A DNA stretch of 64,000 nucleotides from Candidatus Saccharicenans sp. (GTDB lineage: Bacteria; Acidobacteriota; Aminicenantia; Aminicenantales; Saccharicenantaceae), in NCBI GenBank assembly GCA_030017715.1, contig JASEIU010000002.1:360915-424914 (forward strand), read 5' to 3'. Below, piece after piece: positions 36,267 through 51,477 of this stretch; the first letter of the stretch is position 1; each line of letters starts with the position of its first letter. The position numbers were made by a program, and so were the translations under genes. The notes below the pieces were generated by a model. The model saw only the letters and a list, made by a program, of their open reading frames with translations, was not told the origin of the DNA and searched no databases.

Positions 36267-36647
36267 TTGATGTCTGAACAAACTAAAGTCCTGGTAATAG
36301 ATGACGACCCGGCTATCTGCATCTCGGTGAAAGCCATACTGGAGGCCAGCGGCTATCAAACCTTTACCGCCCTGAGCGGAAAAGAAGGACTGGACCTCTT
36401 CAGGCAGATCAACCCGGACCTCGTCCTGTGTGACATGATGATGGAAGACATCGATGCCGGAGCCAAAGTGGCTAAGGTCATCAAGGAAGAACGGCCTGAA
36501 CTCCCGGTTTTTTTGCTGAGCACCATAGGAGAAGCCACCGCCAGAACAATCGGTCTGGACGAGCTGGGCTTTAACGGAGTCTTTCAAAAGCCAGTCAATT
36601 TTGACCTTCTGCTGAGTGTTCTCGACAAACACCGAAAGAAGAGCTGA
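36267..36647 (+). CDS. stand-alone response regulator receiver protein
   Basis: VLVIDDDPAICISVKAILEASGY, LVLCDMMMEDIDAG. Confidence 0.88.
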   Translation: MMSEQTKVLVIDDDPAICISVKAILEASGYQTFTALSGKEGLDLFRQINPDLVLCDMMMEDIDAGAKVAKVIKEERPELPVFLLSTIGEATARTIGLDELGFNGVFQKPVNFDLLLSVLDKHRKKS

Positions 36648-36675
36648 GCTTAATTTCTGCCCAGAATTCACACCG

Positions 36676-37188
36676 ATGGATAAATCCCTGGCCGAAATAT
36701 TCCGCCTCCATTCTGACATTAATGGTTTTTTCCAGGAAGTGTTGCAGCTCGACGGGCTGTTCAGTCTTAACCGGGATGACATGGAAGCGCTGGGACAGGC
36801 TTATTTTGAAAAATACCCGGAAAAATTTGTCCAGAGAAATCTGGAAGAGGTCAGGCTGGGCTATCGGATAACGCGGTTTTGCCTTCTGGAAAAAGCCCTG
36901 GCCGGGATGACTGCGGAGACAAAAGAGTTTTTCCGGAAGGCTTTTGAACGGCCGGAAACGATTGCCGGTCAGATGAAAGAGTCCGTCGCCCCGGAAGTTC
37001 TGCCGGAGCTGGTTTCCGGCTTCGAACGTCTTCAGGCAACCCTTAATGAGTTGAAGGCGGCCGTCGACGAGTTGCCCAGGGGCATGATTAAAGAACGTTT
37101 TCTCGGTGGCCTGTCCACCCTGTTTAACGTTTCTTATCTTTTAAACATCCTGCTGGCTAAAAGCGGTCAGAATAGTTTACAAGAATAA
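36676..37188 (+). CDS. hypothetical alpha-helical protein
   Basis: MDKSLAEIFRLHSDINGFFQEVLQLDG...; no family recognised. Confidence 0.6.
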   Translation: MDKSLAEIFRLHSDINGFFQEVLQLDGLFSLNRDDMEALGQAYFEKYPEKFVQRNLEEVRLGYRITRFCLLEKALAGMTAETKEFFRKAFERPETIAGQMKESVAPEVLPELVSGFERLQATLNELKAAVDELPRGMIKERFLGGLSTLFNVSYLLNILLAKSGQNSLQE

Positions 37189-37269
37189 ATATTTCTGGTA
37201 TTTTGCCATCTAAAAGCAGGGGAGCAAGAGCTTTAGACTCTCCAGAACCGGCCTGTTGAGGAGAGAGAA

Positions 37270-39288
37270 GTGTCTTATCATCGCGGCATCTGCAATTTCT
37301 GCGGAACCGGTTGCGGACATCTGTTGCTGGTGGAAAACAACCGGGCCCGCGGAGTCTATCCTCTTCCGGGACATCCCTTAAGCCGGGGACGGCTCTGTGT
37401 CCGGGGCTGGCATATACATGAACTTCTGCAGACTGATGAACGGATTATCAGGCCCATGGTCAGAGAGGGTGAAACCTTCCGAACGGTTTCCTATCAGGAA
37501 GCCATCGATTATACCGCCCGGGAGCTTAAAAAGTTTTCTGGCCGGGAAGTGGCCTTTCTCGGGTCGCCCCGGGCCTCCAACGAAGAAAATTATCTATTCG
37601 GCAAGTTTGCCCGGGCAGTAATGAAGAGCAACAATATTAGTCTTTCTTCGGACGCAGGCCTGGAAGAAAGCGCCCGGGTATTGCTGGAAGGCTGCGGCTG
37701 GCCGGCGATGACCGGCTCCCTTTCGGGTTTAAGGCAGGCGGATTTTATTCTGGTGCTTGGCGGGGACCTCACCAGACAGAATCCCATCATAGCCAGCGAA
37801 ATTCATTTTGCCCGACGAGCGGGCGCCTTCCTGGTCACCATCTCGCCCCGGAAAACCCAGATGGCCAGGTTGAGTCGGATTCATCTCAGACCCAGGCCCG
37901 GCACTTTATCGATGTTGCTTCTGGCCATGGCCAGAGTGCTGGCGGATGAAGACCTGATAGACAGAGAGTCTCTTGCCGGCCTGGTTGAAAACTGGCAGGC
38001 CTATTCTGAATACTTAGATTCGGTGGACAGAGATGAAATCTTCCGATTAACAGGGGTGGAGGAGAAAGAAGTAATTTCTCTGGCCAGAAAGCTGACCGCA
38101 GCAAAATCGGCCTTCGCCTTTTATCCAGTAGGAATTCAGAGCCTCGACCGGCAGTCTATGGCCGCTCTGTTCAATCTCTTCCTGCTGGCCGGAAAGGTCG
38201 GAAGGCCAGGCTGCGGGCTCTGTCCGCTAACCGGAATCAGCAATCTTCTCGGGAGTCTGGATATGGGGCTTTCCCCTTCCTTTCTGCCCGGTTATTTCCC
38301 GGCCGACCGCGAAGGCAGCTGGAAGAGGCTGGAAGAACTCTGGCCGGTTCGACTCGAACGGTGGCCGGGGAAAAACGCGGCCGCCTGTTTGCTGGAGGAT
38401 AATCCGGTCAAGGCGCTTCTGGTCGTCGACCACGACGAAGAAATCATCCGCAACCTAAACAGAATAAAAAAGCTGGAGCTGGTGGTTTATTTCGGCGCTT
38501 ACCAGAATGCTTTCTCCCGGCTGGCCAAAGTGATTTTCCCCAGGACCACGTACATTGAAGGAGACGGTACTTACACCAATTCTGAAAGACGGGTGCAGCT
38601 GAGTCAGAAAAAGGTCGACCCGCCGGGGGAAGTCCGTCCGCTCTGGGAAATCTTAAGCCGGCTGGCCGGGTCTCTCGGGCACGACTGGAATTATCGGTCG
38701 GCTGAAGATATTATGAGCGAAATAAGCCGGGTGGTACCTCAATATGCCGGGCTCAGTCACCTGAAACTCAAAGACCGCCTGGGGATTAAATGGCCGGCCG
38801 ACGAAAGACACCCTGAGGGAACAGATTGTCTTCTGGCCGAAGAAGCCAGCCAAAAATTCAGGTTTGTTCTGGACGATCGGGAAAGTTCTGACCGGCCCCG
38901 GCAATCGAGCCCGGGCCAGGAATTCCCGTTCCAGCTGGTAATCGGAAGGAGCAATTATTTCTGGCACCAGAATTCCATCATGAAGAGAACCTTTATCCCC
39001 AGAAGAGAGTACAACGCTCTACTGCTCCTGTACCCGAAAGGTTTTGTGGAAGTCTCGGAAGAAGATGCCCGGGCCCTGGGCTTGAGAGAAAAACAGACGG
39101 TGAAAATCATTTCAGAAAAAGCCGAGGTCAGGCTGGCCGTGCGGATTTCTCCCGACATTCTGCCCGGGATGCTTTACATCCCGTATTTTGTGGATGACAT
39201 GATTCCAGAATTTCTCCACCGTCAGGTGGCCGAACTGGAGAAATACGAAGAATTCTTCCTGCCGGTCCGGCTGGAAAAGGTGGCTTGA
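37270..39288 (+). CDS. FdhF-like molybdopterin oxidoreductase with altered active site
   Basis: CNFCGTGCG...C [4Fe-4S] motif, MopB domains, GRSNYFWHQNSIMKRT and C-terminal MPT-binding domain; catalytic Cys/Sec position is Gly130. Confidence 0.88.
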   Translation: MSYHRGICNFCGTGCGHLLLVENNRARGVYPLPGHPLSRGRLCVRGWHIHELLQTDERIIRPMVREGETFRTVSYQEAIDYTARELKKFSGREVAFLGSPRASNEENYLFGKFARAVMKSNNISLSSDAGLEESARVLLEGCGWPAMTGSLSGLRQADFILVLGGDLTRQNPIIASEIHFARRAGAFLVTISPRKTQMARLSRIHLRPRPGTLSMLLLAMARVLADEDLIDRESLAGLVENWQAYSEYLDSVDRDEIFRLTGVEEKEVISLARKLTAAKSAFAFYPVGIQSLDRQSMAALFNLFLLAGKVGRPGCGLCPLTGISNLLGSLDMGLSPSFLPGYFPADREGSWKRLEELWPVRLERWPGKNAAACLLEDNPVKALLVVDHDEEIIRNLNRIKKLELVVYFGAYQNAFSRLAKVIFPRTTYIEGDGTYTNSERRVQLSQKKVDPPGEVRPLWEILSRLAGSLGHDWNYRSAEDIMSEISRVVPQYAGLSHLKLKDRLGIKWPADERHPEGTDCLLAEEASQKFRFVLDDRESSDRPRQSSPGQEFPFQLVIGRSNYFWHQNSIMKRTFIPRREYNALLLLYPKGFVEVSEEDARALGLREKQTVKIISEKAEVRLAVRISPDILPGMLYIPYFVDDMIPEFLHRQVAELEKYEEFFLPVRLEKVA

Positions 39289-39291
39289 ATT

Positions 39292-40350
39292 ATGTACTGG
39301 CTGGAGAAAGATCAGGTTGTCAAACTGACAGGAAAACTGGCCCGGGATTATGCTCTCTTCGGCCCGAGGCGGGATGAGGTTTCGGGCCAGGTGATTTTTG
39401 ACCGGCTGGATGAGCCGGGTCGGCTTGACCTCCAGGCCGCCATTCCTTACAACCCGCCGAAATTTGTGCTTTTTCCACATTATGAAGAAATCCTAAAATA
39501 CCGCTACCAGAAGCAAACCAGGAAAGTAACCATCGAGAAAATAGATAAGCTCCAGCCGAAAGCCCTGGTCGGGCTGCGCTCCTGCGACCTGACCGGAATT
39601 CTCTGTCTGGACCGTTTTTTCCTCGGGCAGGAATTTGTGGATGAGTTCTATCTTGAGCACCGAAAAAAATTGTTCCTGATTTCCAGCACCTGTGTCCGGC
39701 CTTTTCCCCAGTGCTTCTGCGTCTGCACCGATAGCGGGCCGGCCGCCCGGGAAGGCTTCGACCTGGACCTGACCTTCACCGGAGAGGGCTATCTGGTTCT
39801 GGTCGGTTCAAAAAAGGGACAGAAGCTGGTTGAAGAGTTGCAACTGAAGACGGCGGGTCCGGAAGCTGCGGCCCTGAGAAAAAAGATGGTTGATGAGTCC
39901 GTGTCTTCTTTTGATAGTTTTGCTCTGGAGAATAAAGCCTGGATTTCCCGGGCCACCAACCGCTTGACCACCGGATTTGTAAAACCTGAAGTCTGGGAGT
40001 ATATCGGCCATCAGTGTTTCGAGTGCGGCGCCTGCTCTTTTGTCTGTCCGACCTGTTCCTGCTTTAACGTGGAAGATGTAAACGATAACGACGGCCATAC
40101 CGACCGGGTCCGGACCTGGGATTCCTGCTCGTTCGAGGGTTACACCAGGATGGCCGGGGACCATAATCCCAGAAAACCGGTTGAAGACCGACGCAACAAG
40201 AGATTTTTCTGCAAGCTTTCTTATTCCCAGTCGAAAAAATATCTTCGGCCGGGCTGTGTCGGCTGCGGCCGCTGCGCCCGCGTCTGTCCGGGCGATATCG
40301 GCCTGCCGAATGTGGTGACCTATATTCGCAGGGAAGTTACCGGAGAATAA
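39292..40350 (+). CDS. sulfhydrogenase beta / AsrA-like 4Fe-4S electron-transfer subunit
   Basis: LVGLRSCDLTGILCLDRFF, CFECGACSFVCPTCSCF, CVGCGRCARVCPGDIGLPNVV. Confidence 0.9.
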   Translation: MYWLEKDQVVKLTGKLARDYALFGPRRDEVSGQVIFDRLDEPGRLDLQAAIPYNPPKFVLFPHYEEILKYRYQKQTRKVTIEKIDKLQPKALVGLRSCDLTGILCLDRFFLGQEFVDEFYLEHRKKLFLISSTCVRPFPQCFCVCTDSGPAAREGFDLDLTFTGEGYLVLVGSKKGQKLVEELQLKTAGPEAAALRKKMVDESVSSFDSFALENKAWISRATNRLTTGFVKPEVWEYIGHQCFECGACSFVCPTCSCFNVEDVNDNDGHTDRVRTWDSCSFEGYTRMAGDHNPRKPVEDRRNKRFFCKLSYSQSKKYLRPGCVGCGRCARVCPGDIGLPNVVTYIRREVTGE

Positions 40351-40355
40351 GGAGA

Positions 40356-41195
40356 ATGGAGAACAAATTGGTGCCCATAATTACCGTGCCGGAAGCGGCC
40401 ACGGTGACGGAAATTCGCGACGAAATCGATGAAGTCAAGACTTTCTTTTTCACCTTTGACCGGCCGGAAATAGAGGAAGCCTTCAGAATTCGCTCCGGCC
40501 AGTTCATCATGGGCACGGTTTTCGGGGCCGGGGAATTTGCCGTTTCCCTGCCCTTCAGCCCGGAATCCGACCGGAAACATATTTCTGTCAGAAGAGTCGG
40601 TAAGGTAACGGCTGCCCTCCATGAGCTTCAACCCGGGGACAAAATCGGCATCCGCGGTCCTTTCGGCAATGGTTTTCCTTTCGAGGAAATAAAAGGGAAA
40701 AATATGGTCTATGTGGCCGGTGGAATCGGACTTATTCCGCTTCGTTCCTCCATAGTTCATGTGCTGCAGCACCGCCAGGAATTCGGCCGGGTGATTCTGG
40801 TGTACGGCGCCAGGAGTTCAAAGGACCTGATGTATAAAGAATCGATTCGTGACTGGAAGGCCACCAGCGGTTTTGAGACGTATTTTACCATTGACCGGCC
40901 GGAACCCGGCTGGAACGGCGAGGTCGGTTTTGTCAATCAGCTGGTGGCCAGAATTGACCTGCCGGTCGAGAACACCGTGGCTTTCGTCTGCGGTCCGCCG
41001 GTGATGTTCAATTCGGTGATTAAAGAATTAAAAATAAAAGGAATAAAAGAACAGAATATTTATTCAACGCTCGAAAGACACATGAAGTGCGGTATCGGCA
41101 AATGCCAGCACTGCGCCATCGGCCGGACGCTGGTCTGCGTCGACGGGCCGGTCTATACCTATAAGCAAATCAAAACTCTGGGAGAACAGATTTAA
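40356..41195 (+). CDS. sulfhydrogenase gamma / AsrB-like FAD/NAD(P)-binding subunit
   Basis: GPFGNGFPFEEIKGKNMVYVAGGIGLIPLRS, RHMKCGIGKCQHCAIG [2Fe-2S] motif. Confidence 0.92.
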   Translation: MENKLVPIITVPEAATVTEIRDEIDEVKTFFFTFDRPEIEEAFRIRSGQFIMGTVFGAGEFAVSLPFSPESDRKHISVRRVGKVTAALHELQPGDKIGIRGPFGNGFPFEEIKGKNMVYVAGGIGLIPLRSSIVHVLQHRQEFGRVILVYGARSSKDLMYKESIRDWKATSGFETYFTIDRPEPGWNGEVGFVNQLVARIDLPVENTVAFVCGPPVMFNSVIKELKIKGIKEQNIYSTLERHMKCGIGKCQHCAIGRTLVCVDGPVYTYKQIKTLGEQI

Positions 41196-41196
41196 G

Positions 41197-41733
41197 ATGG
41201 AATCGCTGGACCTGCTGCGGAAATTGCTGGCCGAGAAAATCTGCCTGGTCGGCATCGGCAATCATCTTCGCGGCGACGATGGCTTCGGTCCTTATTTTAT
41301 AGAAAAAATCAGGGAGAAGTCGCTTCTGCCGGAAGAGAATCTTATGACGGTTGAAGATGTGCCCGAAAATTACGCTTTCCCCATCTCGCGGAAGGACGTG
41401 GGCAGCGTGGTTTTTGTCGACGCCGTAATTCTGGAGGCGCCTCCCGGCACGGTGGTGCTGGGTCCGCTGGAAGAACTGGAAGAGGTCGGACAGATTGCTT
41501 CCACCCACAAACTATCTCTGCGTCTGACGGCCAGGGTGATTGAAGAGGCGGGCAAGAGAGTCTATCTGCTGGGAATGGTGCCCGAGACCATGGAGTTTGG
41601 CCGGGAACTGTCTCCGAAAATCAGGCGGGTTACCGACGAACTCGTTGGCCTGCTGGAAGGAATGATAAAAGATTTGAATCTGCCGGGCGCCGGCGGCCGG
41701 GGTCTGAAGCCGACAGGGAGAAAAAGCCAATGA
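41197..41733 (+). CDS. hydrogenase maturation protease (HycI family)
   Basis: LVGIGNHLRGDDGFGPYFIE, VVFVDAVILEAPPGTVVL, STHKLSLR. Confidence 0.9.
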   Translation: MESLDLLRKLLAEKICLVGIGNHLRGDDGFGPYFIEKIREKSLLPEENLMTVEDVPENYAFPISRKDVGSVVFVDAVILEAPPGTVVLGPLEELEEVGQIASTHKLSLRLTARVIEEAGKRVYLLGMVPETMEFGRELSPKIRRVTDELVGLLEGMIKDLNLPGAGGRGLKPTGRKSQ

Positions 41734-43625
41734 CCGGGGCTGAGGGTTTCTGGCTGAGTCTGATCAGCCTGGGCTTATCTTTTCTGATGGCCATCGTTCT
41801 GAGAAAAAAGGCCGGGCTTCTGCGAACAGGCGGGACTCTGCTGGTCTCTCTGAGCTGCCTGTTTCTGGCCTGGCAGTCGGTTATAATTCTCGGAGGCGGG
41901 CAGCCGGTTGAACTGGAAATCAAGACGGGAGTCTTTCATCTTCCTGTTCTCATCGACGGCCTATCGGCTCTTTTCCTGTTGCTGCTTTCGGTCTTAACCC
42001 TGGCTTCGGCCATGTTTGCTTATGGCTACTTTGAGAGAATGCCAGCCGAAAGAATCCGGAAAATTTACCTGGTCTTTCCTGTTTTCATTTTCGGGCTGAT
42101 CGGGCTCCTGACTGTTGATGACCTGGGCCCGGGCTTTGCCCTGGCCTGGCAGATGATGGCCGTTTCCTCCTATTTCCTGGTGAGATGGGGAAGGGATGAG
42201 AAATTGTCAACCAGGCCGGCCCTGACTTACCTGGGCTTTATGGAACTGGCCTGGCTGCTGGTGGCCGGGTCGGCTTTTCTGGCGCCAGGGTATCATTTTG
42301 GCGATTCCCTGGCGGTAATAGGAGAAAAGTTGAACGGCAGCAGTCCCGCAGCCGCGGCGGTGTTCTTCGGTCTTCTGTTGCTGGGCTTTGGGTTGAAGAC
42401 CGGCGTTTTTCCCCTCGGGCAGCTCTGGATACCGGGTGCCTACTCCACGGCCTCGCCCCCGGTTTCGGCTCTTCTGGCCGGAATCCTGGAAAAAACCGGG
42501 GTATTTGGACTGATCCGAGTCTTTTTCTTCGTGGCCAGAGAAGCCGGAACCGTTTTTGAGGCCCGACTGTGGGGCAGAGCGCTGCTGGTCGCCGGAACCC
42601 TGACCCTTTTCATCGGGACGGTTCAGGCGATAAAACAGAGCGATTACTTAAAACTTCTGGCCTACAGCTCGATCGGACAGGTTGGTTATATCCTGTTCGC
42701 TCTTGGCAGCAGCCTGGTGGCCCTGGCTTCAGACTCGATGCCGGCTCGCTCGCTGGCCACGGTCATTTTTATAGGCGCTATTTACCACTCTCTCAACCAC
42801 GGGGTTTTCAAAAGTCTGCTTTTCCTGACAGGAGGAAGCCTGCTCTATGCCACCGGGAGCCGCGACTTAAACCGGCTGGGCGGGCTCCTGGCCGCGATGC
42901 CGGTGACCGGAATCCTGGCGGCCCTGGCCTCCTATTCGATCGCCGGGATGCCGGCTTCCAGCGGCTTTACGAGCAAGTGGCTGATGATTTCCGGAAATTT
43001 TCTGGCCGGGCGGAGCGATCTGTTGTTAACTTTCTCCGGCATCGTGGCTCTGTTCACGGCCGCTTTCACCCTCGCCTGTTACGTGAAATTTTTCGGGCTG
43101 GCTTTCACCTCAGCCGGAGCCGGCTGGAAATTGAAAAAAGAAATAAGAGAAGTCCCATCCTCCCTGCTGGTGCCCAAGGTATTTCTGATGCTGATCTGTC
43201 TGAGCCAGGCCTTTTGGCCGCAGTTTTATGTAAAGCTCATTAACCGTTCGCTTCTTGCTGCTCAAGACTTCCTGCTGGCCGGTTCGGCGGTTGAGGCCCT
43301 TCAGGGCGACCGGTCCGGGTTGAAAATTGTTAAAAATTCAGGGGTTCTGGCTGCTGCCTCTCCGCTCCTGATGCTGCTCCTGATTCTGGCTCTGGTTCTT
43401 CTGGCCCGCTGGTTGAGGCAGGCCGGCGGTTCAGGCCAGGTCCGGGTCCCGGCCTGGCTGTGCGGCTATCAGGAATTGAATCAGGACAATGTTTATGCCG
43501 ACCGGAACATGTTTTCTGACCTGAAGAAATTTTTCAGGTGGACCGGAGCCAACGATAATCGGGTAGTTGAGGACGATGAAAGTATTGACCGGGCTTCTCC
43601 GGAGGAAAAAGAGGTAATTACATGA
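41730..43625 (+). CDS. proton-conducting (NuoL/HycC/HyfB-type) hydrogenase membrane subunit
   Basis: Polytopic; IKQSDYLKLLAYSSIGQVGYILFALG, YHSLNHGVFKSLLFLTGGSLLY, GMPASSGFTSKW. Confidence 0.93.
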   Translation: MTGAEGFWLSLISLGLSFLMAIVLRKKAGLLRTGGTLLVSLSCLFLAWQSVIILGGGQPVELEIKTGVFHLPVLIDGLSALFLLLLSVLTLASAMFAYGYFERMPAERIRKIYLVFPVFIFGLIGLLTVDDLGPGFALAWQMMAVSSYFLVRWGRDEKLSTRPALTYLGFMELAWLLVAGSAFLAPGYHFGDSLAVIGEKLNGSSPAAAAVFFGLLLLGFGLKTGVFPLGQLWIPGAYSTASPPVSALLAGILEKTGVFGLIRVFFFVAREAGTVFEARLWGRALLVAGTLTLFIGTVQAIKQSDYLKLLAYSSIGQVGYILFALGSSLVALASDSMPARSLATVIFIGAIYHSLNHGVFKSLLFLTGGSLLYATGSRDLNRLGGLLAAMPVTGILAALASYSIAGMPASSGFTSKWLMISGNFLAGRSDLLLTFSGIVALFTAAFTLACYVKFFGLAFTSAGAGWKLKKEIREVPSSLLVPKVFLMLICLSQAFWPQFYVKLINRSLLAAQDFLLAGSAVEALQGDRSGLKIVKNSGVLAAASPLLMLLLILALVLLARWLRQAGGSGQVRVPAWLCGYQELNQDNVYADRNMFSDLKKFFRWTGANDNRVVEDDESIDRASPEEKEVIT

Positions 43626-45313
43626 GCCGCGCCGAAGAACTCAGCCGCCGCCTGAGAGAAGAACTGGGCAATCTGGTGCTGGACCTGGAGACCGGCACTC
43701 CGGGCCGTCTCTTTATTGATGTCAGTAAAGAGGCCTTGGGGAAAGTTGCCGCCAGCCTGAAAAACCAGGGGGCCAGGTATCAGGCGGCCGTGGCTTACGA
43801 TGCCAGAAAAACAGGTCAGGGATTTGGGCTGATCCATACTTTTGCTTTTGACAGGGATTCTCTGCTGGTGGCCGTCAGGACTTTTGCTCCAGAAGACGAC
43901 CCGGAGTTTGAATCGATAACGCCTTTAATTCCCGGCGCCGGCTGGTCAGAAAGAGAATACATCGACCTGCTGGGGCTGAAGTTTAAGAATCATCCCGAAC
44001 CCAGGCGGCTGGTTCTCTCCGATGACTGGCCGGAAGGCATTCATCCTCTTCGCCGGGATGTGCCCCACGACCTGATGCCCCCCGCGGCCGAAGAGGTGGC
44101 CTTCAGGCTGGAGAAAGCGCCGGCCGGCACGTCGATCATTCCCTTCGGGCCCTTCCACGCCAGCCTGCATGAACCGGCGCATTTTTCGGTCTATGTCGAC
44201 GGTGAGGACATCAAAGGCTGTGAATACCGCGGTTTTATGACTCATCGCGGTATAGAGAAGCTGGCCCAGACCGAGCTGACTTATAATGAAGTGCCCTTTG
44301 TGGCCGAAAGAATCTGCGGAATCTGCGGTTCGGTGCATTCAGTGAATTATGCCCAGGCTGTGGAAGCGGCGGCCGGTTTGAAGATTCCCCGCCGGGCGGA
44401 ATTCATCAGAACGGTGATGCTGGAAATAGAAAGGTTGCACTCCCACCTTCTCTGGCTGGGGGTGGCCGGCCATCTGATCGGCTTTGACACGGTTTTCATG
44501 CAGAGCTGGCGGATAAGAGAAAAAATCATGTGGCTGGCCGAGAAGATAACCGGAAACCGCAAAACCTACGGAATGGTAATCATCGGCGGAGTTCGCCGGG
44601 ATATCGAGCGGCAGAGGGCGTCGGAAATCAGGGTCGTCCTGACCGAAGTGGAAAAAGAGATGCTGGCGCTGGAGAAAGCCATACTTAAAGATAAAGCAAT
44701 CCACAAAAGGACAAAAGGTGTCGGCCATCTTTCAAAAGAAGCAGCCGTTAGCTGGAATCTGGTCGGCCCGGTGGCCAGGGCCCGCGGACTGGCCATCGAC
44801 GTCAGAAAAGACCATCCCTATGCGGCTTATGATGAAGTTGACTTTGAGGTGGTGACGGCCGACAGCTGCGATGTCTGGGGCACTCTGGTGGTAAGGGTGA
44901 AAGAAGTCTATGAGGCCATCAGAATAATTAATCAGTGCCTGGATAAACTGGGCCGGTTGCCTGAACACGAGCCGCTCTCCCTGGTCCTGGAAGGTCCGGT
45001 TCCTTCCGGTCGCCAGGGCCTGTCGGTGGTTGAAGCTCCAAGGGGCGAAGCCGTCCATTATGTGCTCACCGGCGACGATAACCGGCCGGAACGCTGGCGG
45101 GTGAGGGCGCCCACCTATGCCCATCTTCAGGCCGTTCCGGACATGCTCCTCAACAACAAGCTGGCCGACTTCCCGATCATAGTCGGGCAGATTGACCCGT
45201 GCATTTCCTGCACCGATCGGGTGCTGGTGATCAAGCTGGGCCAGGGAAGAGCAGAGCTGCTTCAAAAGCAGGAACTGGAGAGAATTTCCAGGAGCAGGAG
45301 GAAGGAAAGATGA
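43622..45313 (+). CDS. group 4 [NiFe] hydrogenase large subunit (HycE-like; NuoC+NuoD fusion)
   Basis: ERICGICGSVHSVNY (L1) and DPCISCTDR (L2) Ni-ligating Cys pairs; N-terminal NuoC-like domain. Confidence 0.95.
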   Translation: MSRAEELSRRLREELGNLVLDLETGTPGRLFIDVSKEALGKVAASLKNQGARYQAAVAYDARKTGQGFGLIHTFAFDRDSLLVAVRTFAPEDDPEFESITPLIPGAGWSEREYIDLLGLKFKNHPEPRRLVLSDDWPEGIHPLRRDVPHDLMPPAAEEVAFRLEKAPAGTSIIPFGPFHASLHEPAHFSVYVDGEDIKGCEYRGFMTHRGIEKLAQTELTYNEVPFVAERICGICGSVHSVNYAQAVEAAAGLKIPRRAEFIRTVMLEIERLHSHLLWLGVAGHLIGFDTVFMQSWRIREKIMWLAEKITGNRKTYGMVIIGGVRRDIERQRASEIRVVLTEVEKEMLALEKAILKDKAIHKRTKGVGHLSKEAAVSWNLVGPVARARGLAIDVRKDHPYAAYDEVDFEVVTADSCDVWGTLVVRVKEVYEAIRIINQCLDKLGRLPEHEPLSLVLEGPVPSGRQGLSVVEAPRGEAVHYVLTGDDNRPERWRVRAPTYAHLQAVPDMLLNNKLADFPIIVGQIDPCISCTDRVLVIKLGQGRAELLQKQELERISRSRRKER

Positions 45314-46209
45314 AGGTGGCGGCAGTTTTCATCAACCTCCTTTATTTCCTTCTGCTGGCGCCCTTGCTTGAAGGAGTAATGCGAAAAATCACCGCCAGAA
45401 TTCAGTCCAGACAGGGACCGCCGCTCTATCAGCCCTACCTTGACCTTATCAAGCTTCTCGGCAAGGAAAATCTGAATGCCGCCGGGCACCGGGCTTTCCG
45501 GCTGGCGCCGCTGCTGGCTTTCGCTTCCATCCTGGCGGTGGTGGCTCTCCTGCCCTTCGGGGGCGGCTCCAATTTTCTGGCTCATTCCTCGGACCTGATG
45601 ACCCTGATTTACTTTCTGACTCTGAGCGGCTTCGCCGTCCTGCTGGGGGCCCTGGCCAGCGGCAATCCTTTTGCCAGCGTGGGGGCCAGCCGGGAGATGA
45701 TGACCATCATCATGTTGGAGCCGGTTCTGGCTATGACCTTGATTCTGGGCGCTGTAAGGAGCGGAAGTTTCAGCCTGGCGGAGGCCCTCGGGGGAGTGGC
45801 TGCCCCCGGAGAGCTTTCTTACTTTTTGATGCTGGCGGTTTTTCTCGTGGCTCTGCAGGCTTTTGTTTCCAGACAGCCTTTTGATATTCCAGAAGCCGAA
45901 GTTGAGATTCTGGAGGGCCCTTATATGGAATACAGCGGACCCGATTATGCCCTGTTTCGTTATGCTCTTAATATAAAAAGAATGTTTTACGGCTGGCTGC
46001 TGGCGGCCGGATTCCTGGGGTCCTGGCTTCCCGGCAACCTGATTCTGAGCTGGCTGGTGCAGACGATCCTGATTCTTCTGATATTCGTGGCCATATCGGT
46101 GGTCGGGGCTACCCACCCGCGCTACCGGATGGACCAGGCCTTGAAATATTATGCGGTTCTGATGATTCTGGCCCTGATAGCGGTCGGATTCGGGGTGAAG
46201 GGCTGGTGA
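45310..46209 (+). CDS. NuoH/HycD-like hydrogenase membrane subunit
   Basis: LEGVMRKITARIQSRQGPPLYQPYLDLIKLLGKE, RQPFDIPEAEVEILEGPYMEYSGPDYALFR. Confidence 0.94.
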   Translation: MKVAAVFINLLYFLLLAPLLEGVMRKITARIQSRQGPPLYQPYLDLIKLLGKENLNAAGHRAFRLAPLLAFASILAVVALLPFGGGSNFLAHSSDLMTLIYFLTLSGFAVLLGALASGNPFASVGASREMMTIIMLEPVLAMTLILGAVRSGSFSLAEALGGVAAPGELSYFLMLAVFLVALQAFVSRQPFDIPEAEVEILEGPYMEYSGPDYALFRYALNIKRMFYGWLLAAGFLGSWLPGNLILSWLVQTILILLIFVAISVVGATHPRYRMDQALKYYAVLMILALIAVGFGVKGW

Positions 46210-46241
46210 AATGAGCAATAAACTGGCATGGGAAGAAGAAA

Positions 46242-46787
46242 ATGTGGCTCTGGAATAAAATCAAACAACTGGCGATTTCCTTCAGGGCGGGCAAGGTGAC
46301 CCTGGGTTATCCCTTTGAGCCCAGGCCGGCGCCTGAAGGTTTCCGCGGCCAGCCGGTCTGGGATCATACCAGGTGCATAGGCTGCGCCGGCTGCGCCAAT
46401 CACTGCCCGGCCCGGACGATTTTTCTCAGGGATATCTGCCAGGAGGTCAGGATTCTTCTTTATGATTCATCCCGGTGCACTTACTGCGGCCGCTGCGCCG
46501 ACCTCTGTCCGGAGAAGGCGATAACCATGAGCCAGAATTTCGAGCTGGCCACCGATAACCGGCAGGACATCACCCAGACCATTGAACTGTTCATGATGAC
46601 CTGCCAGCGCTGCGGCCGCTGCTACGACCTGGAGATTAAGAATTACCTGGATAAACTGAGTTCGCTCGGTTACCGTTACGATTGCCTGGAAGTAAGGAAG
46701 GTAATTCACCGGGCCACAGCCGACTTCTCCCCGGATATGCTGGAAAAAACCAGTTCGTACCAGAGACCTGATAGCCTGGAGAAATGA
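46242..46787 (+). CDS. NuoI/HycF-like 2[4Fe-4S] ferredoxin subunit
   Basis: CIGCAGCANHCPARTI, CTYCGRCADLCPEKAI, plus an extra CQRCGRC. Confidence 0.92.
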   Translation: MWLWNKIKQLAISFRAGKVTLGYPFEPRPAPEGFRGQPVWDHTRCIGCAGCANHCPARTIFLRDICQEVRILLYDSSRCTYCGRCADLCPEKAITMSQNFELATDNRQDITQTIELFMMTCQRCGRCYDLEIKNYLDKLSSLGYRYDCLEVRKVIHRATADFSPDMLEKTSSYQRPDSLEK

Positions 46788-47374
46788 CCATGTTGAAAAA
46801 GCTATCCCGGAGAGCCTTCCGCCGTTCCCTCTGGGTTTACCACTGCAACAGCGGAGCCTGCAACGGCTGCGACATAGAGATTCTTAATGTGCTTACCCCG
46901 TATTATGATGTGGAAAGATTTGGCATCAGGCTGGTCGGCTCCCCCCGCCACGCTGACGCTATTCTCCTGTCCGGGGCAGTAACCAGGCCGACGCTGCCGC
47001 TGGTCAAAAAAGTTTATCAGGCAGTGCCGGCTCCCAAGCTGGTCTTTGCCGTCGGTTCCTGCGCCATCGGCGGCGGCTGCTGGTATGATACCTACAACGT
47101 AACCGGAGGCGGGGAAAAAGCCATTCCGGTAAATTATTTTATACCGGGCTGCCCGCCCCGGCCGGAGGCCATTATTTATGGGGTGGCCCTGGCCCTCGGG
47201 CTGGTGGACAAGAAAGTGGTTCCGGTAGAGCTCAAGCAGATGGAGTTTCCGGTGGATATGTACCGATGGCAGCGTCTGCTGGAAACCAACAATGTAATTT
47301 ATAAATTGTTGGGCGAAGAGGATGACCGTCTGAATTTCGGAGGAAAGCGAGATGGCCAGGATTCTGCTGGTTGA
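46784..47374 (+). CDS. NuoB/HycG-like hydrogenase small subunit
   Basis: NSGACNGCDIEIL, GSCAIGGG, GCPPRPEAI. Confidence 0.95.
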   Translation: MTMLKKLSRRAFRRSLWVYHCNSGACNGCDIEILNVLTPYYDVERFGIRLVGSPRHADAILLSGAVTRPTLPLVKKVYQAVPAPKLVFAVGSCAIGGGCWYDTYNVTGGGEKAIPVNYFIPGCPPRPEAIIYGVALALGLVDKKVVPVELKQMEFPVDMYRWQRLLETNNVIYKLLGEEDDRLNFGGKRDGQDSAG

Positions 47375-47762
47375 CGACGACCGGGACCTGACCGAAAGTC
47401 TCGGCCAGGTTCTCCGGGTTGCGGGTTATCAAGTCGAAGTAGCCCACAGCGCGGCGGAAGGCTTGAAAAAATTGCCGGAGGTTAAGCCGGACCTGATGGT
47501 CCTGGACGTCATGATGGAGACCGACACCGCCGGTTTTGAGGCGGTCTATAAAATCAGGAGTGAACGACCGGATTCAAAATACAGAGAATTCAGGGACATT
47601 CCCATCATCATTCTGACAGCCATCGACCAGGTTACCAATTCCCGCTTCTCCCTTGACCAGGAAGAGAGCTTTCTACCCGGTCACAATGAATTTCTGACCA
47701 AGCCGGTTGAAGTCGAAGAACTGCTGGAGAAAATTAAGTTGGCCCTGGAACAGAGAAAATGA
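47352..47762 (+). CDS. stand-alone response regulator receiver protein
   Basis: ARILLVDDDRDLTESLG, LMVLDVMMETDTAGFEAV; overlaps the hydrogenase small-subunit gene. Confidence 0.92.
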   Translation: MARILLVDDDRDLTESLGQVLRVAGYQVEVAHSAAEGLKKLPEVKPDLMVLDVMMETDTAGFEAVYKIRSERPDSKYREFRDIPIIILTAIDQVTNSRFSLDQEESFLPGHNEFLTKPVEVEELLEKIKLALEQRK

Positions 47763-49702
47763 GACTGGAAAAGTGGTTAAAAAAAATCGACCACCTCAGG
47801 TCAACCCTGAGGTTCAAGCTGATTTTCGGGTTGCTGACTATAGTTTTTCTTATGGGTGCTCTCTCTATCTATCTCGGGGTCAGTTCGATAAACCGGAATG
47901 TCATCAGGGAAGCCTATGATAATGTCAGAAACAGTCTTAAAGCCATCTCGGACCTCTATCAGGAAGAAATCAGAAATAGAGCCGGCCTGATTGAATATCT
48001 GGCCCGGACCTCGGAAATAGTCAACGCCACGGCCTCAGGCCAGCGAGACTACCTATACGAAAAGCTGATCCAGATAAAAGAAGAGTTCGGTTTTGATATA
48101 GTCAACGTGGTCAAACCGGACGGCACCATCCTGGTCAGGGCCAATAATTTTGAAGCTTACGGAGACAGTGTTATCGATTATAAATATATAAAATGGGTCC
48201 TGACCAACAGGAAACCGGCGGCTGGCACCGGCATTCTGGGCTATGAGAACGTAAGAAGAGAAGGACCGGAACTGGCCGAGAGAACTCTGATCAATATAGT
48301 TCCCACTCCGAAAGCTCGAACCCGGCGGCATGAAATGGAAGAAAGAGCCCTGGTCATGAAAACCGTCTCGCCGATTTTTCAGCGCGGCCGCCTGGTGGGG
48401 GTTCTTTACGCGGCCGTGGTTCTGAATAACAACGACCGGTTCGTCGACCGCTTCAAAAAGCTGATTTTCAAAGAAGAAAAGATTGAGGGCAAAGACGTCG
48501 GCACCATAACCATTTTTATAGATGACGTGAGAGTGGCCACCAACGTGGTCGACCTGACCGGCCGGCGGGCCGTCGGCACCCTGGTTTCCGAGGAAGTTTT
48601 CCGGGAGGTCTTCGAGCAGGGAAAAGACTGGCTGGGACGGGCCTTTGTGGTCAGCGACTACTATCTTTCTGGTTACACCCGCCTGACCGATATCGAAAAC
48701 CAGCCCGTTGGCATGCTCTACGTGGGCATTCTGGAAGACAAGTTTACGCGGCTGCTGTGGCGGACAGCCATCCTTTATTTTCTGCTGATTTTCTTGATGA
48801 CCGGGCTGGCTTTCTATATCTCCACCAAACTGGTGAATCTCTATACCCGACCGATAAACCACCTGATTGAAGCCACGGCCGAGATCGCCCGCGGCAATTA
48901 TCACCTGGTGGACGTTTCGCCCGGAGAAAGCGCGGAAATCAGAGAAGTGGCAGAATATTTTAATGAGATGGTCAGGGCCATTGAAGACCGGGACCGGCGG
49001 CTTAAAGAGCTGGCCGAGAAGACGATTCTGAGGTCGGAAAAGCTGGCCTCGGTCGGCCGGCTGGCTTCGGGCATTGCCCACGAAATCAACAATCCCCTGA
49101 CCGGGATTCTAACCTACAGCAGCCTGCTGCTGGAGGAAATGAAGGGCTCTCCTTACGAGGAAGATTTGAAAACGATCAAAGAAGAGACCCTGCGCTGCCG
49201 CAAAATCGTCAGGGGCCTGCTGGATTTTGCCAGGGATTACAAGCCGGAAAGGCTATCGGTCAATCTGAATTCCCTGATCGAAGAGGTCCTGGGCCTTCTG
49301 GAGAAACATGTCAATTTTCATAATATTAAAATCATAAAGAATTTTGACCCGGTGCTGCCAGAAGTTAAGGTGGATGCCGACGAGTTTCGTTCGGTGATCA
49401 ACAACCTGGCGGTGAACGCCGCCGACGCCATGCCCGAAGGAGGTCGGCTGACCGTATCTACTGCTTATGACCGCGAGCAGAATCAGGTGGTCATAAGGGT
49501 GGCCGATACCGGTGTCGGCATCAGTGAGGAGAATTTGAAAAGAATTTTTGAGCCCTTTTTCACCACCAAGGAGAAAGGAAAGGGAACCGGTTTGGGTCTG
49601 GCCATGGCTTACGGAGTGATCAAGAGGCATAACGGGACCATTGAAGTCAGGAGCCAGGTGGGCGAAGGGACCGAATTTATAATGAAACTGCCGGTCGAAT
49701 GA
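47759..49702 (+). CDS. membrane sensor histidine kinase (Cache-like sensor, HAMP, HisKA, HATPase)
   Basis: Two TM segments with periplasmic domain; [51 protein letters not shown]. Confidence 0.94.
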
Positions 49703-49723
49703 CCGCCGGCAGAAGGGAAAAAC

Positions 49724-50788
49724 ATGAGCAAACCAAGAATATTATTCATCGACGACGAGGAGATCGTCCTGCGGAGCTGTCGCCGGATCTTTGCCGGCGC
49801 GGACTATGAAATTGACACCGCCCTGTCCGGAGAAGAGGGCTTGAGCAAGGCTATCAACCAGGACTATGACCTCGTGGTCACCGACCTTAAGATGCCGGGA
49901 ATCGGCGGGATGGAAGTCTTGACCAGGCTGAGGAAAGTCAGGCCCGACACCACGGTCATCATCTTTACCGGCTATGCCAGCGTGGACACGGCCAGAGAAG
50001 CCCTGAAAAACGGTGCCTTTGATTACATTCCCAAACCTTTCACTCCGGAGGAGATAAGGGAAGTCATCAAAAATGCCCTGGAAGCCCGGGCCGGCAAACA
50101 GAGGACCATGCTGGACCTGATGGCCATCGTCTCCCACGAGCTCAAGAGCCCGGTCTCGGCCCTGCATACCACCGCCTCCACCCTTTATAAGGGCTATTTC
50201 GGGCAGCTTTCGCCCGAGCAGATGAAGATTCTGGAGACCATCATCCGCAACTGTGAATATCTGGAAGATATCATCCGCAGCTATCTGGACCTTTCCAGGA
50301 TGGAGTTGAACCAGCTCGATTCCTTCAAGGAAGAAATATTTTTTGTCAAGGATGTGGTGGAAGAAGTGCTGACTCTTCCGGAAATCGCCGACAACACCAA
50401 AAAGATGACCATTGTCAGGAATTTTTCTGGAGATGTCAGGATAAACGGCGATCCGCGGCTGCTGAAAATCCTGGTCAGAAATCTAATCAGCAACGCCATA
50501 AAGTACGGTAACGAAGGCACTGAAGTGAAACTTGGCCTGGAAGCAAAAAATTCCGAGATGATTTTTTCCGTTTACAACCAGGGGGTGGGCATTAATCCGG
50601 AAGACGGCCAGAGGCTCTTCCGCAAGTTTGAAAGGCTCAAACAAAAAGGAACCGAGGGCGTTAAAGGGTCGGGTCTCGGACTTTACATCTGCAAAAAGAT
50701 AGTCGACAGCCACGGTGGCCGGATCTGGTTCGAATCGGAGCCCGGCCGCTGGGTGACGTTTTATGTTAGCCTGGCGCTGGCTGCCTGA
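49724..50788 (+). CDS. REC-histidine kinase hybrid protein
   Basis: REC (ILFIDDEEIVLRSCR, LVVTDLKMPG, FDYIPKPFTPEE) then DLMAIVSHELKSPVSALHTTAS and GSGLGLYICKKIVDSHGG. Confidence 0.93.
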   Translation: MSKPRILFIDDEEIVLRSCRRIFAGADYEIDTALSGEEGLSKAINQDYDLVVTDLKMPGIGGMEVLTRLRKVRPDTTVIIFTGYASVDTAREALKNGAFDYIPKPFTPEEIREVIKNALEARAGKQRTMLDLMAIVSHELKSPVSALHTTASTLYKGYFGQLSPEQMKILETIIRNCEYLEDIIRSYLDLSRMELNQLDSFKEEIFFVKDVVEEVLTLPEIADNTKKMTIVRNFSGDVRINGDPRLLKILVRNLISNAIKYGNEGTEVKLGLEAKNSEMIFSVYNQGVGINPEDGQRLFRKFERLKQKGTEGVKGSGLGLYICKKIVDSHGGRIWFESEPGRWVTFYVSLALAA

Positions 50789-51085: not shown

Positions 51086-51115
51086 TTGACAATTTAACCT
51101 TATCTTCCATATAAT
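51086..51115 (+). promoter_or_regulatory. consensus sigma70 promoter of tmRNA
   Basis: TTGACA, 18 nt, TATAAT immediately upstream of ssrA. Confidence 0.75.
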
Positions 51116-51125
51116 AATCATTGTC

Positions 51126-51477
51126 GGGGGCGAAATGGACTCGACGGAGGTAGTGAAGCAGAAGCTGCAGGCCGAGGTCCCATCAACCTCGTTAAACAGG
51201 TGGGAAACAATTAACTGCAGAACCTGTTGCAGTCGCTGCCTGATAGAAAGTGCAGCCGTCTCTTGAGGCCTCTCCTGCGGGCCTGAAGAGACGCCGACCA
51301 GCAGGATAGCCTGCCGGGCGTGCTCAGGGTCCGGCGGGCGAAGTTCCACTTGAGCTGGTTGAGCGATACTCTTCCTCTTCGAGAAGCGCTCAATGAGATG
51401 CAATGAGGAGGATAAGCCTGTAGAGGCTGGCTGTGGAATGCCTTCGGACGCGGGTTCGATTCCCGCCGCCTCCACCA
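51126..51477 (+). ncRNA. ssrA: tmRNA
   Basis: 5' GGGGGCGAAATGGACTCGACGG, 3' GGTTCGATTCCCGCCGCCTCCACCA; GGGGGCG/CGCCTCC acceptor; tag reading frame ending ...AVAA-stop at 51202-51243. Confidence 0.96.

Follow-up and report, generated by a model that had tools for sequence, protein, structure and literature searches.

FdhF of the Escherichia coli formate hydrogenlyase (FHL) and the NDUFS1 subunit of respiratory complex I are homologous, and their association with their respective complexes probably arose independently (PMC9474812). Related modules have been found joined in other ways: Fdh3A, a formate dehydrogenase (FDH) subunit of Thermococcus onnurineus, retains its Cys133-His134-Arg324 residues and is tungsten-dependent (PMC8965080), and an "enigmatic" group 4 [NiFe] hydrogenase region reported in 2019 from Saganbacteria RX5A contains antiporter-like subunits, asrA and asrB, together with a molybdopterin oxidoreductase that is an FDH by hidden Markov models and not by phylogeny (PMC6349859). 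The mechanism of the RX5A region was put no further than 'similar to Mbh', and the main text of that report contains no active-site analysis (PMC6349859). For the Aminicenantes, the open-access literature searched mentions group 4 hydrogenases only in general terms. Here we describe a cluster of nine plus-strand genes, separated by 1-32 bp or slightly overlapping, at positions 37270-47374 of a 64,000-nucleotide window (the whole stretch of DNA analyzed, G000:C11:360915-424914) from a Candidatus Saccharicenans genome of 2.9 Mb in 18 contigs (92.6% complete). On the sequence evidence set out below, we think it fairly probable that its products form a single energy-converting [NiFe] hydrogenase in the membrane, built like FHL except that the formate-oxidizing input of FdhF and HycB has given way to an NAD(P)H dehydrogenase module; the FdhF-like subunit, here called MopB, has lost the catalytic residues of FDHs.

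Matches in Pfam, NCBIfam and the Protein Data Bank (PDB) bear out the gene identities and coordinates of the original prediction, which had described nine contiguous plus-strand genes, and support its reading of them as a composite of an FHL-like, group 4-type membrane module with the NAD(P)H module of a soluble hydrogenase. MopB matches the Pfam families Molybdopterin oxidoreductase and Molybdop_Fe4S4, HydB matches Fer4_22, and HydG matches NAD_binding_1 and DHODB_Fe-S_bind; the hydrogenase half of the cluster gives HycI, Proton_antipo_M, Complex1_49kDa and 30kDa, NADHdh, Fer4 and Oxidored_q6. No gene for a HycB-type linker occurs in the cluster, where HydB and HydG are present instead.

The catalytic residues of FDHs are missing from MopB. 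When it is aligned with an F420-dependent FDH, FdhF of the hydrogen-dependent CO2 reductase (HDCR) and other FDHs, the residues SDAGLEES (~37651-37674) replace the Sec/Cys-His of the ligand loop; the exact pairing within the loop differs between alignments, and in none does the ligand position hold Cys or Sec. PLRG, the motif of the catalytic Arg, has become PLTG, with T321 at the position of Arg333 (38230-38232). Selenocysteine was considered and rejected, as neither the window gene nor its matched homologues contain an in-frame stop and the loop holds neither Cys nor Sec. Among the 18 homologues from blocks with a single pump subunit (17 clade members and genome G191), the Sec/Cys140-His141-Arg333 triad is gone in every case: the clade has G, W, H or T at the Cys position and T, A, P or V at the Arg position, and the His is unconserved. 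All 18 retain the four [4Fe-4S] cysteines of MopB (C8, C11, C15 and C43).

The fold has outlasted the active site. An AlphaFold2 (AF2) model of MopB, with a mean predicted local distance difference test (pLDDT) score of 84, gives a template modeling (TM) score of 0.89 to FdhH and 0.68 to complex I subunit G. The ratio of non-synonymous to synonymous substitution (dN/dS) is 0.09-0.35, similar to that of the neighboring genes and indicative of purifying selection, so MopB is not a pseudogene. We scored the retention of 100 columns that are invariant in eight FDHs, with the iron-sulfur (FeS) domain excluded. Two held-out FDHs kept 92 and 94 of these columns and the MopB clade about 57, and E. coli NuoG retains 28-29; the MopBs of two further genomes, G032 and G376, kept 85 and 42. 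The substitutions K44>R and N176>D are common to the MopB clade and NuoG. In our trees a branch parts the degenerate MopBs from the FDHs with support of 100/100 (17 rows), or 87/74 when L131 and L132, which have long branches, are included. By family score MopB stands below the cut-off both for the FDH alpha subunit (TIGR01591, 410 bits, cut-off 666) and for NuoG (TIGR01973, 124.5 bits, cut-off 470). As far as its residues tell, MopB no longer works as an FDH and probably serves only as a scaffold or wire; we propose that it works like NuoG, yet by family score it is not a NuoG.

The distribution of the maturation factor FdhD agrees with this. FDHs, such as that of E. coli, normally require FdhD. 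We found no FdhD in the source genome or in any complex-bearing genome searched of the order; it is present in 4 of the 94 genomes searched, none of which carries the complex. Because an FDH that looks intact occurs without FdhD in one complex-bearing genome, G088, this absence is only supportive, not decisive. With the triad missing throughout the clade and FdhD absent, the suggestion in the original prediction that the FdhF-like protein may act on formate or another MopB substrate finds no support.

The gene set is conserved well beyond the source genome. The block occurs in two families of the Aminicenantales, in two other families of Acidobacteriota and in one metagenome-assembled genome (MAG) labeled Spirochaetes, sampling outside the Acidobacteriota consisting of one scan of named genomes. 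It is present in G191, with all three downstream signaling genes, in G358, where hypA/hypB-like genes adjoin it, and at L071. Gene order is intact in every fully read Saccharicenans relative bar G060, in other genera of the family, in the second family of the order and in the MAG labeled Spirochaetes; a HycI match at the expected position is missing in G046 and in the second Aminicenantales family. Of the genomes of the order, 26 have both MopB and a HycE-type gene (G032 included, although its MopB is not of the clade type), 67 have neither, and G060 alone has MopB without HycE (Fisher P 2e-22, a calculation that ignores kinship). Subunit by subunit, the matrix of protein identities correlates with that of MopB or HycE (r 0.90-0.97). 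As order is kept in many genomes and the identity matrices agree, the cluster is far beyond chance.

Two other Acidobacteriota loci carry the same parts in another architecture. In G032 (L050) and G376 (L132), MopB, HydB and HydG adjoin a hydrogenase that is Hyf-like and has three subunits of NuoL type, in a gene order that differs from that of the single-pump block. The MopB of G376 lacks all three catalytic residues, and that of G032 keeps the Cys-His pair and has Ile at Arg333. Loss of the FDH active site thus recurs in HydBG-linked MopBs of differing architecture. On the complex I analogy proposed below, the G032 protein would have gone less far in the same decay.

The hydrogenase half keeps the ligands that electron flow would need. 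Against the PDB, HycE matches HycE of E. coli FHL (7z0s) with an E value of 1e-125 and the membrane-bound hydrogenase (MBH) with 2e-73; its Ni-Fe cysteines C232, C235, C527 and C530 are present in all 18 homologues, and it has a C-terminal extension for the protease. The ligands of both [4Fe-4S] clusters of HycF and its extra CxxCxxC motif are likewise conserved in 18 of 18, as are the proximal cluster ligands of HycG. HycD retains most of the E-channel glutamates; R108 and E189 are not retained. The NuoL-type subunit has invariant Lys/His residues in common with HycC and HyfB, the pump Lys being mostly conserved. It has a Lys where HycC has Glu391, and Lys is the usual residue there in other group 4 hydrogenases (PMC9474812). 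The L1 and L2 CxxC motifs, the NuoB-like small subunit, and the NuoH-like and antiporter-like membrane subunits place the enzyme in group 4; a small reference tree, with few references and long branches, gave no clear placement of HycE.

The input module is related to that of a soluble hydrogenase. In a PDB search HydB and HydG match the beta and gamma subunits of Pyrococcus furiosus sulfhydrogenase I (9nez; E 9e-39 and 2.5e-57, respectively). All 18 homologues have 16 of the 18 HydB cysteines. HydG has its FAD and NAD(P) motifs, and its four [2Fe-2S] cysteines occur in all 18. The cluster contains no AsrC siroheme subunit recognizable by Pfam or NCBIfam. The dinucleotide stretch of HydG, VYGARSSKDLMY, is similar to that of the NADH-using NqrF, WYGARSLREMFY, a likeness that gives a weak hint of NADH as the nucleotide.

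We infer from these data that the subunits assemble into a single complex, with NAD(P)H as the donor and an electron route that would include MopB. Electrons would enter from NAD(P)H at the FAD and [2Fe-2S] cluster of HydG and pass to the [4Fe-4S] clusters of HydB, then via the [4Fe-4S] cluster of the disabled MopB and/or HycF to HycG and the [NiFe] site of HycE, with HycD and the NuoL-type subunit coupling this flow to ion movement. Set against complex I, HydG and HydB would stand for NuoE/NuoF and the N-terminal clusters of NuoG, MopB for the C-terminal part of NuoG, and the Hyc proteins would occupy the places of NuoB/C/D/H/I/L. MopB would then be a scaffold and iron-sulfur wire, as NuoG is in complex I, derived independently from an FDH ancestor. 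We therefore put forward, as a more tentative proposal with somewhat less than even chances, that the enzyme is an H2-forming, ion-coupled analogue of complex I, in which the making of NuoG was repeated by disarming an FDH and keeping it as an FeS scaffold between HydBG and a group 4 module.

We likewise infer the direction of electron flow, the ion moved and the choice between NADH and NADPH. At low H2 the potentials of NADH and H2 almost coincide; the enzyme therefore probably works in both directions, and it is more likely a reversible converter between ion gradient and redox energy than a strong pump. The ion gradient, perhaps with electrons from ferredoxin too, could be spent to vent NADH as H2; at high H2 the complex could conserve energy instead.

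Several observations weigh against this proposal. HydB and HydG miss the NCBIfam cut-offs of the sulfhydrogenase equivalogs (149.9 of 750 bits and 200.3 of 650 bits) and those of Asr (AsrA 148.6 of 323 bits, AsrB 188.5 of 288.6 bits). A Hox-type group 3 hydrogenase already provides an NAD(H)-H2 link in this organism, and a lone NuoL subunit may be a poor pump, or no pump. The remaining points are the many pterin-fold residues that persist in MopB, a deletion in G060 that separates the two halves of the cluster, and the little driving force that NADH to H2 offers for pumping; each of these speaks for a different alternative.

The persistence of pterin-fold residues makes a bis-molybdopterin guanine dinucleotide (bis-MGD) cofactor or another substrate possible, and MopB might still bind bis-MGD and oxidize or reduce another substrate at a rebuilt active site. 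The roughly 57 retained columns, a conserved motif specific to the clade (WHxNxxMKxTxIPxRE) and the molybdenum cofactor (Moco) genes of the source genome are in keeping with this; the metal-ligand loop, however, varies within the clade, Gln335 is also lost and Gln428 mostly so, and we regard such a function as doubtful. The Moco genes (MoaA, MoaC and MoeA) are found close to an aldehyde ferredoxin oxidoreductase (G000:C14:111765-122085) and may serve the enzymes of this kind, for which the genome gives several matches. MoaC and MoaA gave no matches in the complex-bearing genomes G046, G088, G089, G080, G082 and G032. We considered and rejected this as proof of a cofactor-free MopB, as genomes without MoaC/MoaA encode pterin-requiring aldehyde ferredoxin oxidoreductases; because the same genomes carry these enzymes, and G088 its intact-looking FDH, the gaps probably reflect assembly gaps or divergence.

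The deletion in G060 (L038/L062) runs from the middle of NuoL into HK1 and leaves RR0-orfX-MopB-HydB-HydG-HycI with the hydrogenase half gone; it may be either a true loss or a MAG artefact. It would suit a separate, soluble NAD(P)H oxidoreductase of MopB, HydB and HydG that merely shares its transcript with a group 4 hydrogenase of the ordinary, ferredoxin-dependent kind, as would the occurrence of HydBG as a soluble module elsewhere (9nez). A break in synteny between these two blocks had been named beforehand as the finding that would tell against a joint complex, and G060 is the only genome in which we saw one. Co-occurrence and order are otherwise perfect, other families of the phylum included, HycI of the hydrogenase sits between the two halves, and in FHL the FdhF subunit docks on HycF and HycB (PMC9474812); two separate enzymes are on this evidence unlikely. 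The low driving force of NADH to H2 would equally suit a confurcating or bifurcating machine that uses both NAD(P)H and ferredoxin, for which the FeS branches (the extra CxxCxxC of HycF and the MopB cluster) could form a second entry point; with a single flavin-binding subunit and no recognized bifurcation motif, we give this little credence as well. Least probable is a true formate hydrogenlyase, with MopB oxidizing formate to feed HycE and a side branch through HydBG to NAD(P): the FdhF fold and FDH-family score of MopB, the likeness of the membrane module to that of E. coli FHL and the Cys-His pair of the G032 variant, itself without the Arg, are outweighed by a triad absent or unconserved in all 18 homologues and in G376, by the lack of FdhD in the complex-bearing genomes of the order and of a HycB gene in the cluster, and by a score under the TIGR01591 cut-off.

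The conserved unit is wider than the nine genes and spans 36270-50788, with signaling and orfX genes on its flanks (Table 1). The signaling genes, fixed components of the block, encode two stand-alone receivers, one Cache-HAMP kinase and one receiver-kinase hybrid; orthologues of RR0 are 62-90% identical and hold the same position in relatives, and Pfam recognizes no DNA-binding output domain in the three downstream signaling proteins (RR1, HK1 and RR2HK). Wherever a relative was read with its flanks intact, the orfX gene is conserved beside MopB; its product is modeled with confidence (pLDDT 90.7) and has no Pfam family and no PDB fold match (best Foldseek E 0.5). The start of HycD at 45310 corrects a mechanical open reading frame start at 45199. 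Predicted terminators are at background level (22 found, 21.0 expected from shuffled sequence) and promoter-like sites in modest excess (15 found, 8.5 expected), which is uninformative for the hydrogenase operon. Just past the operon lies a transfer-messenger RNA (tmRNA) gene (51126-51477); at 51086-51115 it has a promoter-like site that matches TTGACA-18-TATAAT perfectly.

Table 1. Genes of the conserved hydrogenase block in the window.
Feature	Position	Strand	Basis
RR0, stand-alone receiver-domain protein, 125 aa	36270..36647	+	sequence; first gene of conserved block; GGAGG Shine-Dalgarno
orfX, 170-aa all-helical protein	36676..37188	+	AF2 model; conserved position
MopB, FdhF-fold protein	37270..39288	+	Pfam, NCBIfam, PDB matches
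HydB/AsrA-like iron-sulfur subunit	39292..40350	+	Pfam, NCBIfam, PDB matches
HydG/AsrB-like FAD / NAD(P) / [2Fe-2S] subunit	40356..41195	+	Pfam, NCBIfam, PDB matches
HycI-type [NiFe] hydrogenase maturation protease	41197..41733	+	PF01750 and TIGR00072, both above cut-off
NuoL/HyfB/HycC-type antiporter-like membrane subunit	41730..43625	+	PF00361; Lys/His residues as in HycC, HyfB
HycE-type [NiFe] large subunit, NuoC-NuoD fusion	43622..45313	+	Pfam, PDB; L1 RICGIC, L2 DPCISCTDR, C-terminal extension
HycD/NuoH-type membrane subunit	45310..46209	+	Pfam; E-channel glutamates
HycF/NuoI-type 2x[4Fe-4S] subunit, extra CxxCxxC	46242..46787	+	Pfam; ligand conservation
HycG/NuoB-type small subunit, proximal cluster ligands present	46784..47374	+	Pfam; ligand conservation
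RR1, stand-alone receiver	47352..47762	+	PF00072; synteny
HK1, Cache-HAMP-HisKA-HATPase sensor kinase	47759..49702	+	Pfam; synteny
RR2HK, receiver and histidine kinase hybrid	49724..50788	+	Pfam; synteny

Three further [NiFe] hydrogenases were seen in the source genome. The Hox-type group 3 cluster (L085; G000:C11 ~355.1-361.2 kb, minus strand) extends into positions 1-263 of the window and encodes a NuoE-NuoF fusion, HoxU-, HoxY- and HoxH-like proteins, a protease and HypA. A second group 4 enzyme (L084; G000:C11 ~216-226 kb) has several NuoL-type subunits and is 42-43% identical to HycE. A group 1-like large subunit (L086; G000:C10 ~174-184 kb) lies with a protease and an HdrD-like FeS protein; counting it in, the genome holds four [NiFe] hydrogenases.

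If our reading is right, the complex would offer a present-day parallel, in an enzyme still able to make H2, to a debated step in the history of complex I, the change from molybdopterin enzyme to inert NuoG. Uncultured fermenters that are widespread, the Aminicenantes and other Acidobacteriota, would also gain a direct link between NAD(P)H and H2 that is coupled to ions, with a bearing on how they dispose of NADH at low H2. The MopB gene scores as a formate dehydrogenase and offers no ground to credit these genomes with formate metabolism.

Consideration of the known systems shows which parts of the cluster are shared and which are its own. The suggestion that the assembly may be undescribed holds in part: a similar, unexplained gene set had been reported from Saganbacteria RX5A, and we came across no account, in the open-access literature searched, of a group 4 hydrogenase combined with HydBG and a disarmed FdhF. 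By the gene content given in the text of that report alone (PMC6349859), the RX5A region shares the unclassifiable MopB, AsrA, AsrB and a group 4 hydrogenase, and differs in having cooF and Mrp-like subunits. The Fdh3 and Fdh2-Mbh systems of T. onnurineus (PMC8965080) are alike in joining FdhA with an NAD(P) flavoprotein and FeS proteins, and an FDH with a group 4 hydrogenase, respectively, but none of the systems in that work unites a dead FdhA, HydBG and a group 4 hydrogenase. P. furiosus sulfhydrogenase I, of group 3b, has HydB and HydG that are homologous over most of their length, with conserved FeS and FAD/NAD(P) motifs, whereas here the pair is joined to a group 4 membrane hydrogenase and not to a soluble alpha-delta hydrogenase. 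E. coli FHL-1 (HycBCDEFG-FdhF) shares the HycC/D/E/F/G counterparts with their [NiFe] and FeS ligands, a HycI-type protease and an FdhF-fold protein; unlike it, the cluster has no HycB, has HydB and HydG, carries an FdhF-like subunit without the triad, has Lys in place of HycC Glu391, and includes kinases and receivers in the unit. Respiratory complex I, finally, shares the membrane arm, the NuoB/C/D/H/I/L homologues, an NAD(P)H-oxidizing flavoprotein and an apparently dead MopB that keeps its [4Fe-4S] cluster, and differs in that a [NiFe] site here takes the place of the quinone, HydB/HydG that of NuoE/F, and MopB stands nearer to FDH than to NuoG.

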